Shown one piece after another: positions 50,616 through 56,476 of a stretch of 64,000 bases of DNA. Below the pieces are notes generated by a model. That model saw only the letters and a list, made by a program, of their open reading frames with translations, made no database searches and had not been told where the DNA came from. Source of the DNA: Anaerolineales bacterium (lineage in GTDB: Bacteria > Chloroflexota > Anaerolineae > Aggregatilineales > UBA2796); contig JABTTZ010000001.1 of assembly GCA_015075625.1 (NCBI GenBank), positions 682,001-746,000 on the forward strand. The letters run 5' to 3'. Numbering within the stretch: position 1 is the first letter of the stretch; the number at the start of each line of letters is the position of its first letter. Position numbers and translations under genes: made by a program.

Positions 50616-52721
50616 TTAATTCACCGCTGTGCCAAAGCCCGGTGCGCTGCACGGGTTGTAATCCGCGCCGAGGACAATCTTGAAGGATACTGTGGCATTG
50701 GGGTCGGGTTGGCTAATCACCGCGCTTGCCCGCACATTCAACGCCCGCAGCATCCGCTGTAACGTCTGCGGCGAAGCGCCCCCTGTATAGTCATAGACCA
50801 CCGTCTTGGGGGCAGCCTCCAGCACCCCGCCCGATGTAGCGGCAAAGCCCCCCCATCCTAAGGCGTCAATCGCCACCCGTTCCAAATCGGGGACACCAGA
50901 GCCATTGATCACTTCCATTGCCCCTAAGGATTCGGTTATCCGATTCGTCGGCGGCGTATAGAAGTTTAAGAGGGTGTTTGCCATCCCCTCTGGGATCGGG
51001 ATTTGAACAGCTTCGTTCTGCGGGGTTGTCCAGCCATCCGTCTCCCGCCCCTTGACCATCGTAAACTGGGTGATGTTCGCCGGGTTCAAGTTCAGCGCAA
51101 CAGGCAGCAGTCCGATAATGTCTTGAAGTTGGAGGTTTGTCTCCACAATCTGGGTTGCTTGTCCCCACAGTTCGGGCGCTTTCGCCAGCAAGCCCTGATC
51201 GCGTGCCTCCCGCCAGATTGCCCGCAAAATTTGCTGTTGGCGGCGGTTGCGGTCAAAGTCGCTCGTCCCGGTACGCATCCGTGCATACCACAGCGCGGTG
51301 ATCCCATCCAAGCGGTAATAGCCCGGCGTCAGTTGGAAGTTCTCTTCAAAGATTGGGGCGTTTTGGGCGTCATATTGACCGGTGAATTTCGGACCCTTAA
51401 TGGGGCAATCCACCGCCAGCGAAACACCGTTCAGCGTGTCGATGACCTGCTTAAACCCGTTAAAGCTGATCCGCGCATAGAAATGGATCGGGATGCCCAA
51501 GTTGTAGAGGATCGTCTCTTGGAGCAGCCCAAACCCGCCATTTGGCTGCCACCCAACGGATTCCCCCCATGTATAGGCGACATTGATCCGCTGCATCCCT
51601 AAATTGGGAATACACACGAACAGATCGCGGGGGATGCTCAACATGGCGACAGTGTTTGTCGTCCGGTTGACGGAAACCACCAGCATCGTATCGGTGCGGA
51701 AGGAACGTTCCGTCGGGTCGAGATCGGAATCGCTGCCGATCAAGAGGATATTCATAATGTCGTAGGTGCCCGCTTGCAGCCGTGCCGCACGCGGTGGGAT
51801 CGCCGTTGGTGGGGTACTTTTCCCTTCGCAGGCATCACGTCCCGGCACACGGGGCAGGGTGCTGGTTGCTCCGGCGGTTGGCAAGGCGGCAATGACCGTC
51901 GGCGCAATCGTTGGAGCTTCGGTGGGCAGCACCGTTCGGGTTGGACGGCGCGTGTTCGTCGGCGGCGGCGTCACGGCGATAAGCGTCGTCCCCATCGTCT
52001 CGGTTGCCGTCGGCGGGAGCGGCGTTTCGGTCAGCGTGGCGGTGAATGTTGCGCTCGCTGTATGCGTATGGGTCGCTGTTGCCGTGTCCGTTGGGCGCTC
52101 TGTTGGCGTCAGACTCGGTGTGATGGTTGGCGTCGGTGGTGGCAGTGTGGGTGTGACACTTGACGTGGCGCTTGGCGGGATCGGTGTCTCCGTCGGAAGA
52201 ATCGCCGCCCCTTGCGGCGTCGCCGTCATAATAGTCACTTCGCTGATCAGCGTTGGTAGATCGGTTTGTGTCGGTTCCCCTGTTGGGCTATCGGGGGTGG
52301 GCGTCGCTGAGGGTGGCAGGGGGGACGCAGTAATTGTTGGTGTGAAGGTGGGTGGTTCGGGGGAAGGCGTCGCCGTCTCCAGTGGGCGTTCGAGGGGCGT
52401 CTCAAGAGGCGTCTCAAGAGGCGTTAGCAAGCGCTCACTGATCGCCGTTTCTGTCATGGAGAACACATCGAGAGCCGTGGTGGGCTGTGTCGTTGGGAGC
52501 GGAGAAGCAAGGCGAGTGGCATTGAGAAGGGCTAACGCGGTGGCTGTGCCGGGGTAAACAATGCTCTGCGCTGTTTGTGTGGCGTATACTGCCCTTCGTG
52601 TGTTCAAATCGCGTAGACCATTTAGCGCGAGATGCGCCAAAAGGATGATGGTGCCGATGCTAATGAGCGTAAACACGCCCCGAAAAAACAGCCCAAGATA
52701 GCCAAACAACCGTTGTCTCAT
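50616..52721 (-). CDS. LytR-CpsA-Psr (LCP) protein with very long Thr/Pro linker
   Basis: A 701-residue envelope protein. One N-terminal membrane helix (about 8-33) is followed by some 250 residues of extracytoplasmic TPTPT/ETPLETPLE linker. Then comes the LCP domain (MNILLIGSDS, FRTDTMLVVSV, AMLSIPRDLFVCIP, and the Arg pair in ALWYARMRTGTSDFDRNRRQQ). A LytR_C domain follows (MEVINGSGVPDLERVA..). LCP enzymes transfer polymer from a lipid carrier to the cell wall or to proteins. The linker DNA has a short tandem repeat (GAGGCGTCTCAA units near 52390-52430), so its length may vary. Confidence 0.92.
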   Translation of the reverse strand: MRQRLFGYLGLFFRGVFTLISIGTIILLAHLALNGLRDLNTRRAVYATQTAQSIVYPGTATALALLNATRLASPLPTTQPTTALDVFSMTETAISERLLTPLETPLETPLERPLETATPSPEPPTFTPTITASPLPPSATPTPDSPTGEPTQTDLPTLISEVTIMTATPQGAAILPTETPIPPSATSSVTPTLPPPTPTITPSLTPTERPTDTATATHTHTASATFTATLTETPLPPTATETMGTTLIAVTPPPTNTRRPTRTVLPTEAPTIAPTVIAALPTAGATSTLPRVPGRDACEGKSTPPTAIPPRAARLQAGTYDIMNILLIGSDSDLDPTERSFRTDTMLVVSVNRTTNTVAMLSIPRDLFVCIPNLGMQRINVAYTWGESVGWQPNGGFGLLQETILYNLGIPIHFYARISFNGFKQVIDTLNGVSLAVDCPIKGPKFTGQYDAQNAPIFEENFQLTPGYYRLDGITALWYARMRTGTSDFDRNRRQQQILRAIWREARDQGLLAKAPELWGQATQIVETNLQLQDIIGLLPVALNLNPANITQFTMVKGRETDGWTTPQNEAVQIPIPEGMANTLLNFYTPPTNRITESLGAMEVINGSGVPDLERVAIDALGWGGFAATSGGVLEAAPKTVVYDYTGGASPQTLQRMLRALNVRASAVISQPDPNATVSFKIVLGADYNPCSAPGFGTAVN

Positions 52722-52834: not shown

Positions 52835-54730
52835 TCAGCCAAGCCAATGAGCAGCAATAACCATCCGCCGAATCAGGGTCAGCGCAAAAGAAGACTCCCA
52901 CCCTGCCTCATACGCCCTATAATCAGGCAGCCCTCTGATCCGCCCCGCAAGGTGGCGTACTTCGTCAAGATTCAGAATAGATACAAAGCCTTCTAGGTCA
53001 GAATCAAACAGCCTATCTACGAACGGGCGTGCCGTTGTCAGTAGATCGTGGACGAGGGAGAGGGCAAAATCGCTCTTGGTCAAACGCGCCCGCACCGATT
53101 CAGGGAGCATTTCCGCCAGCGCCCGCCGTGCCAATGAACGGGTGACCCCGCTGCGCATTTTTTGTTCTGGCGGCAGCGCCAAACAAAACCTAACCAAATC
53201 GAGATCGTAAAAGGGGTGGCGCATGGCGATCCCCGCCGCCCCGCCAATGGCGTCGATCTCTGCTAAGAGGATTGCCCGCCGCGCACGCCCTAGCCCCTGA
53301 TGGTGTGCGAGATGCTCCATGCGGGGGGCTGGTTCTTTCCAACGGGGAATGGTCAGCAGTCTATCGTTTGCCAAAAGACGTTTACGCCAGCCATAAAGCG
53401 GATCGCTCTGGCGCGGTTTGAGGATGGCGGCGGCGGTATTTTTGGCAAGGCGACGGGTTGTCCCTTTCCCCAACCCTCGGCGGAGCATCTGCATCCCTTT
53501 CAGGTAGGCAGCCAACCGCCCTCGTTTTAAGAAATGGGCAAGCGCATCCCGCGTTTTGTAAAGGTAGGCATGGGCTGTTGTCCCCCGTAACGCCGCTGCC
53601 GCCTTTGCCTCCCGAAGGAAGGCATCCCAATCCCCTTGTGCGGCTAATTCGTCAAGGTATGTCCAGCCGTGTGAAAGGACGCCATCACCATCTTCGCCAT
53701 CAAGCATCACGCGGACGCCGAGATCGTGTGCCGCCCGATTGAGCGCGAGGTGCGCTGCCCCGTTCATGCTGAAGATAGGCTGTCCATGTGCCTGAAGCAG
53801 CCTATCTAGATGATCAAAGGCGCTCCCTTCGGCAACCTCGTGATGGATCAAACCACCCGTCGCTGCCACCGCACGGGCAAAGGGGCGTTCATCCCGTTCG
53901 GGCGTGTTGGGGGGAACAAGGTGAAAAGCGTGCAGTGAGCCGCCCTCAGCCGCCTTGCTGCTGGATAAGATTGACCGTGCCATGACGGTGATCAGGCTTG
54001 AGTCCAAGCCGCCGCTCAGATGTGTGCCGATGGGCTGCGGCGGGCTAGCGAACACCTCTCCCATTCGCCGTCGTACTGCTTGGGCAAAGTGTTCCCGAAA
54101 GGCTTCTTCATAGGCGCGGTCATCGGGCAAGCGAAGAAAGCCTTCCATTGGCGGGAGGGGAGTTACTCTTACCTGCGGGGTGCGCTCGGCTGCCCCGATT
54201 TCAACAGAACCGCCACAGGGAATCAGGGCAATGTCGCGGTAAAAGGTGAGCGTTTCTGTGTCAAGGTTCAGAAGGTAGGCGGCAAGATGAGACTCATCGA
54301 TCCGGCGGGGAACATCGGGCAGCGCCAAAATTGCCCCTAACTCCGTAGCAAAGGCGCAAAAAGATCGACAAGCGTAATAATAGACGGGGCGTGCGCCAAA
54401 GTGGTCGTGCGTCAGGGTGAGCCGTTCCGTCGGGGCATCCCACAAGGCGGCACTGTATTCACCGGGGATGTGCTGTGCCGTCTCCGTTCCCCACCGAACA
54501 AGCCCTTCGTATAAGACGCTATGAGGTTGGGTGCTGCTCACAGCGAGGAATAGAGAGGGGGGATCGCTCTCGATCCGAAGTGAGGCATCCTCACCAAAGG
54601 CGGCAAGATGAACGCCACCCGTGATCCATGTCTGGGCAGTCCCTCGGTGAGCAAGCGCTCCAATCATCGCCTGAAACCCGTCGAGAGCCGGTTGGCGATC
54701 CCAACACACGAACCCACAAAGTGCGCTCAT
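52835..54730 (-). CDS. Asparagine-synthetase-like protein, candidate lasso-peptide cyclase
   Basis: 631 residues: an N-terminal Ntn-amidotransferase-like half and a C-terminal ATP-pyrophosphatase half with the PP loop SGGLDSS (239-245), a LDGEDGDGVLSHG loop and GIAMRHPFYDLDLV. In true asparagine synthetase the nucleophile is Cys2 (MCGI..). Here the protein begins MSALCGF, so the Cys cannot be N-terminal, a hallmark of lasso macrolactam synthetases, which adenylate an Asp/Glu side chain of the precursor. It lies divergent from the peptide gene at 54851, which carries a lasso leader motif. The alternative is another AsnB-like amide or ester former. Confidence 0.78.
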   Translation of the reverse strand: MSALCGFVCWDRQPALDGFQAMIGALAHRGTAQTWITGGVHLAAFGEDASLRIESDPPSLFLAVSSTQPHSVLYEGLVRWGTETAQHIPGEYSAALWDAPTERLTLTHDHFGARPVYYYACRSFCAFATELGAILALPDVPRRIDESHLAAYLLNLDTETLTFYRDIALIPCGGSVEIGAAERTPQVRVTPLPPMEGFLRLPDDRAYEEAFREHFAQAVRRRMGEVFASPPQPIGTHLSGGLDSSLITVMARSILSSSKAAEGGSLHAFHLVPPNTPERDERPFARAVAATGGLIHHEVAEGSAFDHLDRLLQAHGQPIFSMNGAAHLALNRAAHDLGVRVMLDGEDGDGVLSHGWTYLDELAAQGDWDAFLREAKAAAALRGTTAHAYLYKTRDALAHFLKRGRLAAYLKGMQMLRRGLGKGTTRRLAKNTAAAILKPRQSDPLYGWRKRLLANDRLLTIPRWKEPAPRMEHLAHHQGLGRARRAILLAEIDAIGGAAGIAMRHPFYDLDLVRFCLALPPEQKMRSGVTRSLARRALAEMLPESVRARLTKSDFALSLVHDLLTTARPFVDRLFDSDLEGFVSILNLDEVRHLAGRIRGLPDYRAYEAGWESSFALTLIRRMVIAAHWLG

Positions 54731-54741
54731 TGGAATGTGAG

Positions 54742-54770
54742 TTGCGTACCGCGAGGGAATTGTCTATACT
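54742..54770 (+). promoter_or_regulatory. Candidate promoter of the lasso-like precursor gene
   Basis: TTGCGT (54742-54747) and TATACT (54765-54770) are separated by exactly 17 bases, 80 bases before the peptide start. The -10 is five of six to consensus and the -35 three of six. It lies just upstream of the divergent cyclase-like gene start. Confidence 0.5.
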
Positions 54771-54850
54771 GATCACAATTAATCTGATTGGGGTTCATCC
54801 TATGCAGACTATCCAAAATGATCTGGGATAGGGAGTAAAAGGGATCATCC

Positions 54851-55018
54851 ATGTTTATAGAACCGTCCCCATCTGCTCCAAACACAGCAGGCAAGGCTAT
54901 CAAAAAGCACTACACCACGCCAAAATTAACCACCTATGGTACCTTGGCACAGCTTACCCATGATACGCTCACCGGGACGATCATTGACGATACCGATTTC
55001 AACCGTCCCGAAAGCTAA
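54851..55018 (+). CDS. Candidate lasso-peptide precursor (55 aa)
   Basis: A short gene starting at ATG 54851 with AAAGGGA six bases upstream and TAA at 55016-55018. Residues 21-36 fit the lasso leader motif YxxPxLxxxGxxxxxT exactly (Tyr21, Pro24, Leu26, Gly30, Thr36), the part bound by the RRE domain. By the rule that this Thr is at -2, the leader ends with His37 and the core is DTLTGTIIDDTDFNRPES (18 residues). Asp46 is core position 9, where the ring-forming acid is expected (7-9). Core residue 1 would be Asp, which is unusual; Gly is most common. The Thr/Asp-rich core is acidic. RRE and protease genes are not adjacent. Confidence 0.7.
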   Translation: MFIEPSPSAPNTAGKAIKKHYTTPKLTTYGTLAQLTHDTLTGTIIDDTDFNRPES

Positions 55019-55036
55019 ATCGGCGGAATATCACTA

Positions 55037-56476
55037 TCATTGCGCCAAATCTTTTCCGACGATCAAGACAATATCGGCGGGGGGGTTTGGCTCCGAGCCG
55101 GCAGTGATGATCGTATTTGTCAGCCCTAATACTTCGGCAAGATAGCGAGCTGTCTTGAATTTGCTGCCATAAACACGAATCTCACTCTGTCCGTAAAGAC
55201 CGACGCCTTCGGCATTCCCCACCCCTACAATATTAAACCCCGCCCCCACAAGGCGATCTCGCGTCCGCCCCGCCAACCCATCGATTCCCGCCCCATTCGC
55301 TATATAGATGGTCGCGTTTTCTTCCGATGCCTGCGGGTTGCTGGGACCGCCCTGCCCGGTGGTGAACAGGTCGCCCACAAGTTGGTAGATTCCCTCATAG
55401 AAGGGCGTCATGACCTGCTCACCAGATTGCAGTGTCGCCGGAAGAAGCTGCCCGCCTTTTTCCGTCTTGATTGTCAACACCGCAGATTTGATTTCCTTTA
55501 CATCTTGGGCAAGAGAGGCTAATTGAAGCGCCTCCTCAAAGGTGAGATTCGTCTTGATGTTTTCGGCAAGGGCACTCCAAATCTCTGGCGCACGCCCAAT
55601 CAGAGTCGATAGCCCGCCAAGCGTCAACACCTTGTCTTTCACTGCCCGAATCACTTCTTGTTGGCGCTGCGCCCGTCCAATATCATCTCCCGCATTGTGA
55701 CGCACCCGCGCATATTGCAGCAGGCGTGTGCTGTCCAATTCTTGACAGCCGGGTTGAAACTCGACGGTGATCACCCCGTAGGTTTCTGTATCTGGGTAGT
55801 TGGCATCAAAGATGCGATCCGTCGGGCAGACCTGGATCGTCCCAATGGCGTTGATCAGCGTCTCAAATGCCTGAAAATTGATCAGGACATAACCCTGAAT
55901 GGGAATGCCCAGAAGGTTTTCGACTGTTTTCACCGCCAACGCTGCCCCCCCGCCTGGGTATTCGTTCAGATCGCCAATATAATTCGCCGCATTGATTCGG
56001 TTTGGCGAGAGCGGCGCATTGAATCCCGGAATCTTTACATAGACATCACGGGGGATGGAGAGCATCGCCGCCTGTTTGCTGATCGGGTCAACACTGAGGA
56101 CGATCAGCGTATCGGTGCGGAAGGGTCCCGTCTCTTGGGGGCGCTGATCAATACCGAGCAGGAGAATCGTCACCCGTTTCGGATCATTCCAGGTGGGAAG
56201 CGCCGTCGGCTCAACAGGGGCGACGGCGACGGGCGTTCCATCCGTTCCTGACTCGGTGGCAAGGGGGGGCGGCGTCTCTGTGTCGGCGGCGATCAAGGGG
56301 ATAGGCGTTGGGCGGATCGCCCCTACTTGCGGCGGTGGGGGAAGCTCAATGGGAGATTGAAGTACCACCGTTTTGACGCCGTTGTAGGCGGCAAACGCCC
56401 CTCCCACCGTCAGCATCGCGCCGACAATCAGAATGACCAACACAAACAAAGGCGAAATACGCATCCGTGATTCCAT
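55037..56476 (-). CDS. LytR-CpsA-Psr (LCP) protein
   Basis: 479 residues with an N-terminal membrane helix (about 8-32), a short Pro-rich segment, the LCP catalytic domain (VTILLLGIDQRP, FRTDTLIVLSVDP, AMLSIPRDVYVKIP, YARVRHNAGDDIGRAQRQQEVIRAV) and a C-terminal LytR_C domain (ATIYIANGAGIDGLAGRTRDRLV). The conserved Arg and Asp residues of the active site are present. It is convergent with the lasso-like peptide gene, 18 bases apart, and may simply be a wall-polymer ligase. It is the second LCP gene within 6 kb. Confidence 0.93.
   Translation of the reverse strand: MESRMRISPLFVLVILIVGAMLTVGGAFAAYNGVKTVVLQSPIELPPPPQVGAIRPTPIPLIAADTETPPPLATESGTDGTPVAVAPVEPTALPTWNDPKRVTILLLGIDQRPQETGPFRTDTLIVLSVDPISKQAAMLSIPRDVYVKIPGFNAPLSPNRINAANYIGDLNEYPGGGAALAVKTVENLLGIPIQGYVLINFQAFETLINAIGTIQVCPTDRIFDANYPDTETYGVITVEFQPGCQELDSTRLLQYARVRHNAGDDIGRAQRQQEVIRAVKDKVLTLGGLSTLIGRAPEIWSALAENIKTNLTFEEALQLASLAQDVKEIKSAVLTIKTEKGGQLLPATLQSGEQVMTPFYEGIYQLVGDLFTTGQGGPSNPQASEENATIYIANGAGIDGLAGRTRDRLVGAGFNIVGVGNAEGVGLYGQSEIRVYGSKFKTARYLAEVLGLTNTIITAGSEPNPPADIVLIVGKDLAQ

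Follow-up and report, generated by a model that had tools for sequence, protein, structure and literature searches.

In lasso peptide pathways, an RRE protein (B1) binds the leader of the precursor (A), a leader peptidase (B2) cuts it and a cyclase (C) closes the ring. The closest described systems are those with discrete B1 and B2 proteins and a cyanobacterial-type cyclase (NF033535), which share with the locus reported here the leader motif, a Thr at −2, an acid at core position 9, and an asparagine synthetase (AsnB)-like cyclase without Cys2. Where a lasso cluster has several precursors, they share one machinery, and noncognate leaders are bound by the RRE FusB1; RREs can also discriminate between leaders (PMC13381572). 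The Bacillota LPP and paeninodin systems resemble the genome studied here in having two RiPP pathways, YxxP/WxxP leaders, and discrete RREs per genome; their RREs, however, evolved to hold the pathways apart (PMC13381572), whereas our gene inventory suggests that one RRE is shared. The unclustered lanthipeptide proteases described in PMC8960859 belong to another RiPP class, and they differ from the present case, in which neither the leader-binding protein nor the peptidase is encoded at the locus and the peptidase gene lies within a second lasso locus. We found no description of a lasso system with its core genes at separate loci in the open-licence literature that we searched.

Within the window (the whole 64-kb stretch of DNA analysed, from the genome here called G000), a gene for a lasso-type macrolactam cyclase (631 aa; 52835..54730, minus strand) and a gene for a lasso-type precursor (55 aa; 54851..55018, plus strand) diverge from a 120-bp intergenic region (54731..54850). 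This confirms the arrangement given in the original prediction, an asparagine synthetase homologue on the other strand 120 bases from the peptide gene. As judged from sequence, there are three departures from the usual lasso pair: machinery in trans, a core that begins with Asp, and an eroded N-terminal domain in the cyclase. Compared with the NF033535-type systems, in which the relatives of the window cyclase sit in full B1-B2-C-A clusters, the window locus has neither B1 nor B2, the two C/A pairs of the genome have a single B1 and a single B2 between them, the predicted core starts with Asp1, and the cyclase, with its eroded domain, scores below the model cut-off.

We assigned the cyclase using NCBIfam and Pfam profiles, a phylogenetic tree, column conservation, an AlphaFold model, and Foldseek. 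It scored 342 bits against the NF033535 lasso cyclase model and 165 bits against asparagine synthase, whereas an AsnB-like paralogue from G000 scored oppositely (287 and 521 bits). Because 342 bits lies under the curated NF033535 cut-off of 525, which the relatives in G178 and G092 clear (847 and 736 bits), we file the enzyme as lasso-type by phylogeny and not as a member of this narrow, one-group model. In the tree it sits on a long branch, and its sister is a cyclase encoded in a B1-C pair of the same genus (support 95/87); both belong to a supported (starred) clade whose seven cyclases all come from lasso contexts. Its relatives in G178, G384, and G092 are located in full B1-B2-C-A clusters, and the five AsnB-type paralogues of the genome form a separate clade (99/98). 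The profile comparison of LasC with AsnB that had been proposed as a check and the tree thus agree in grouping the enzyme with lasso-cluster cyclases and not with ordinary AsnB. The N-terminus reads MSALCGFV, with Ser in place of the AsnB catalytic Cys2, and all five paralogues start MCGI, which bears out the earlier remark that Cys2 is missing. Searches for further relatives were sparse in return: a contig scan with the window cyclase alone as the query found none, a family-level search found one only, and a sequence search of solved structures gave amidotransferase relatives only.

The two domains of the cyclase have fared differently. The synthetase domain keeps 20 of the 22 columns conserved in other lasso cyclases, as do the relatives from full clusters, and it retains SGGLDSS, E280, and D348, the marks of an intact ATP-binding/synthetase domain. 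The N-terminal glutaminase-like domain is short by ∼27 residues and keeps 9 of 27 conserved columns (77–100% in other lasso cyclases). AlphaFold modelled the protein with confidence (pLDDT 83, pTM 0.87), and Foldseek placed the model in the AsnB/beta-lactam synthetase fold class. Domain erosion and a long branch would suit a decaying relic, that is, a former full type-I cluster (B1, B2, C, and A, as in G178 and G384) that recently lost B1 and B2 and left A and C unused. Both ORFs are intact, however, and the conservation of the synthetase domain at the level of full-cluster relatives and the confident model likewise argue against a relic. The conservation pattern is more in keeping with a working cyclase whose N-terminal domain drifts freely than with a dead gene.

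The precursor gene, identified as an ORF with a motif and translated as MFIEPSPSAPNTAGKAIKKHYTTPKLTTYGTLAQLTHDTLTGTIIDDTDFNRPES, carries the leader recognition motif YTTPKLTTYGTLAQLT (YxxPxLxxxGxxxxxT; 54911..54958, plus strand). Direct reading gives Y21..P24.L26...G30.....T36, the exact spacing claimed for the 55-residue gene at 54851, and the same motif recurs across the class, in the precursors of about 25 lasso loci. The match to NF033528 (lasso_cyano) is weak (E 2e-5) and below the cut-off of that model. Exactly one motif ORF in a plausible position lies in the 64-kb window, where first-order Markov simulations yielded 0.01 per 64 kb on average. Over the whole genome (4.68 Mb), the DNA form of the motif matches 13 times, as does a reversed control, and precursor-like motif ORFs adjoining lasso-type cyclases number only two, the window ORF and that of the second lasso locus. 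A Shine-Dalgarno-like AAAAGGG (54837..54843, plus strand) stands 7 nt ahead of the ATG and upholds the good ribosome-binding site of the original prediction; the −10/−35 pair proposed with it was not recovered, as a sigma-70 scan of 54500–55200, which spans the intergenic region, found no promoter-like match. Directly 5′ of the Shine-Dalgarno lies a nine-codon mini-ORF, MQTIQNDLG (54803–54832, plus strand), which may act as a leader or in translational coupling.

The promoter result counts towards a relic, but the precursor retains its motif, spacing, Thr at −2, and Asp9, which counts against one. These data also bear on the reading that the pair is an ordinary AsnB-type amidotransferase beside a small chance ORF. 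The fold class is the same, the ATP-binding SGGLDSS is common to AsnB, beta-lactam synthetase, and the window cyclase, and amidotransferases, beta-lactam synthetases, and AsnB are the closest matches among solved structures. The window cyclase nevertheless has Ser2 where AsnB has its N-terminal Cys nucleophile, its glutaminase domain is eroded, and both its profile preference and its phylogenetic grouping are with lasso cyclases; a single motif ORF 120 bp from such a gene is far above the chance expectation. The tree and the motif statistics rule this reading out, and we leave it only a vanishing probability. We conclude, on sequence evidence, that the window precursor is a genuine lasso peptide precursor gene beside the gene for its own ring-closing enzyme.

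Under the rule that Thr occupies −2, cleavage after His37 (one residue past Thr36) would release an 18-aa core, DTLTGTIIDDTDFNRPES (54962..55015, plus strand), with Asp as residue 1 and Asp as residue 9. The predicted ring acceptor is Asp9 (54986–54988, plus strand); the earlier claim of an Asp at core position 9 holds if cleavage falls after Thr36-His37. An acid at positions 7 to 9 is thereby present, and the small first residue that is usual for, but does not define, classic lasso peptides is absent. The pattern x-x-x-[T/N]-G-x-x-x-D9 is common to the window core and to those of the two nearest informative relatives, G092 (L060; QMVTGDMGDKT) and G080 (L058; NSMNGDQPDVG), which also have the acid at position 9 and, like the window core, lack Gly1. 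The G080 precursor is likewise divergent from its B1-C genes. A search for homologous precursors by motif, suggested with the original prediction, was favourable on balance: no close orthologue was found, but the core pattern recurs in these two relatives. Metanodin offers a parallel, by description and not by sequence, in its nonclassical first residue and Thr at −2; its Asn1, as opposed to the Asp1 predicted here, was shown experimentally, so the classic set of first residues is not strict (PMC12670498). Asp as core residue 1 was not found in the literature consulted.

The same features raise the question of whether the product is threaded. A nonthreaded, leader-derived RiPP, either a branched-cyclic macrolactam or a peptide with some other modification, produced by a divergent cyclase whose N-terminal domain is altered, would account for an unusual core (Asp1, an acidic ring region, and bulky residues only at Phe13 and Arg15, in the tail) and for an N-terminal domain unlike that of other lasso cyclases. 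Against this, the Asp9 ring size and the core pattern are common to G092, whose cyclase clears the NCBIfam lasso cut-off, and we consider a nonthreaded product doubtful.

Neither an RRE (B1) nor a leader peptidase (B2) gene was found at the window locus, and own-type copies of both are absent from the pair, whose relatives have them beside C; this would suit a relic. The search of the genome for the two genes that the original prediction had recommended returned one of each above cut-off, both outside the window, and their presence elsewhere argues against a relic. With 98.5% completeness in 5 contigs (4.68 Mb), the assembly leaves a small chance that a B1 or B2 was missed. The one PqqD/RRE above the Pfam cut-off lies on C1 at ∼360.8 kb, outside any lasso cluster and at a distance of 374 kb from the window pair; among NCBIfam models it matched lasso_PqqD_Bac best (62 bits, below the cut-off of 80), with PQQ_PqqD at 20 bits. 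The one Transglut_core3/lasso B2 (lasso_biosyn_B2) above cut-off lies on another contig (C2, ∼785.9 kb), where it is the first gene of a second lasso locus (locus II) in the order B2, cyclase, precursor. Locus II has no B1, and its predicted core, GLLNPPLE8PIFPFSLCNPGT, is classic-looking (G1..E8). All four functions (A, B1, B2, and C) are present in the genome; their location in one cluster, which is usual but not defining, was not found. There is an overlap between the lone RRE gene and the beginning of an FAD_binding_5 (molybdopterin dehydrogenase-type) gene (L020:8100-9078, minus strand). We rejected the idea that the RRE belongs with this FAD-binding gene as a general explanation, as the homologue in G010 has other neighbours.

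Gene partition in relatives provides context for this arrangement. The same-genus genome G010 has a B2-C-A locus without B1 that is syntenic with locus II of G000 (36–59% identity), and, apart from it, a B1-C pair truncated by the end of a contig and an RRE that stands alone. This RRE and the lone one of G000 are sisters (98/87), joined in the tree by the RRE of G073 (92/88, not starred), a genome whose cyclase falls with those of locus II (82/85). The simplest reading is therefore that the lone RRE is the B1 of locus II, moved away from it. RREs like those of its relatives are missing from the window pair; the sole resident RRE is of a different type, which counts against its use by the window precursor, given that RREs can discriminate between leaders. 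B1 and B2 are adjacent in most relatives of the class. In G295, which is 98% complete and comes from another family, the genes are divided between a B1-C-A locus and a B2-C-A locus, and the genome has a single B1 and a single B2 above cut-off, so complementary halves of leader removal lie at two loci in at least one unrelated genome. Read from gene content, the G295 partition is an independent parallel to that of G000. In G468, a B1-C pair and the only B2 are on different contigs, with B1 close to a contig end. The recurrence in G295 is a further argument against a decaying relic, which we regard as unlikely on balance, though less so than a nonthreaded product.

Two LytR-CpsA-Psr paralogues flank the window pair (50616-52721 and 55037-56476, both on the minus strand). 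No orthologous site of the pair was found beside LytR-CpsA-Psr orthologues in G010, G003, G001, or G007; the G010 orthologues of the flanking genes are on separate contigs with no A-C pair alongside. G010 also has two precursor-like genes, both near contig ends (L187:1449-1652, core GTSSGIGQD9AAYSFS; L197:131-328, core GTGGSAGD8SNLAFS).

Several other loci of the survey are unusual. A lone type-I RRE in G209 (L140:1018-1314) has no B2 in the 8 kb examined, and the same genome has a full lasso cluster (L142). At L174:1006-3619 and L176:2462-5108, B1-B2 pairs are followed by an AsnB-like gene that is closer to ordinary AsnB paralogues than to lasso cyclases. Three loci in class relatives (L062:6399-7454, L147:4486-5032, and L052:11-682) combine an RRE and/or B2 gene with a lasso-type leader and a Gly/Arg/Lys-rich tail (NFGMSGQPGRGRGRGRR, ASTARGRKKKKK, and KPGKGKGNAYG..) that has no acid at 7 to 9; no cyclase gene was found near them, and their products may be linear RiPPs. 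The predicted cores of three type-I precursors (L071:1025-1189, L141:7219-7440, and L072:3920-4066) have no Asp or Glu at 7 to 9 and one at 10 or 11, and two of them have paired Cys, which could reflect an unusual ring size or shifted cleavage.

From genes, family placements, copy numbers, and positions that are directly established, we infer processing in trans, a cleavage site, a ring, and threading as follows. The lone B1 (C1, ∼360.8 kb) would bind the YxxPxL leader of the window precursor and hand it to the B2 encoded at locus II (C2, ∼785.9 kb), which would cut after His37. The window cyclase would then adenylate Asp9 and close an amide bond between it and the alpha-amine of Asp1. The predicted product has a 9-residue ring, a 9-residue tail, and a calculated monoisotopic mass of 1990.91 ([M+2H]2+ 996.46), that of the core less one water. 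Locus II (B2-C-A, with its G1..E8 core) would draw on the same B1 and B2. Action in trans is proposed because of the B1 and B2 copy numbers. A leader-profile test leaned towards the resident RRE type (log-likelihood ratio +3.6; 24 of 28 correct in leave-one-out), with the N-terminal half of the leader pulling the other way, and this lean is suggestive only.

Together, the placement of the cyclase, the single distal RRE and B2, and the recurring core pattern favour the split lasso locus with RRE and protease genes in trans that was first put forward, the trans action itself being predicted. We think it probable that the window pair is genuine and that the two cyclase/precursor pairs rely in trans on a single B1 and a single B2. 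The fuller account stands at about an even chance: a distributed lasso system with two C/A pairs at separate loci and a stand-alone B1 and a B2 elsewhere, a partition that would have evolved repeatedly (G000/G010 and G295), and one cyclase that takes a core starting with Asp1 and whose glutaminase-like domain has shed most of its conserved features.

Lasso mining usually seeks A, B, and C in one cluster, so that C/A pairs without an adjacent B1 and B2 would be passed over. What the N-terminal domain does in lasso cyclases has a natural test in the window cyclase, where it is eroded. If several C/A pairs depend on a single RRE and a single peptidase, recognition would be separable from cyclisation in nature, and cores could diversify without carrying a whole cluster with them.
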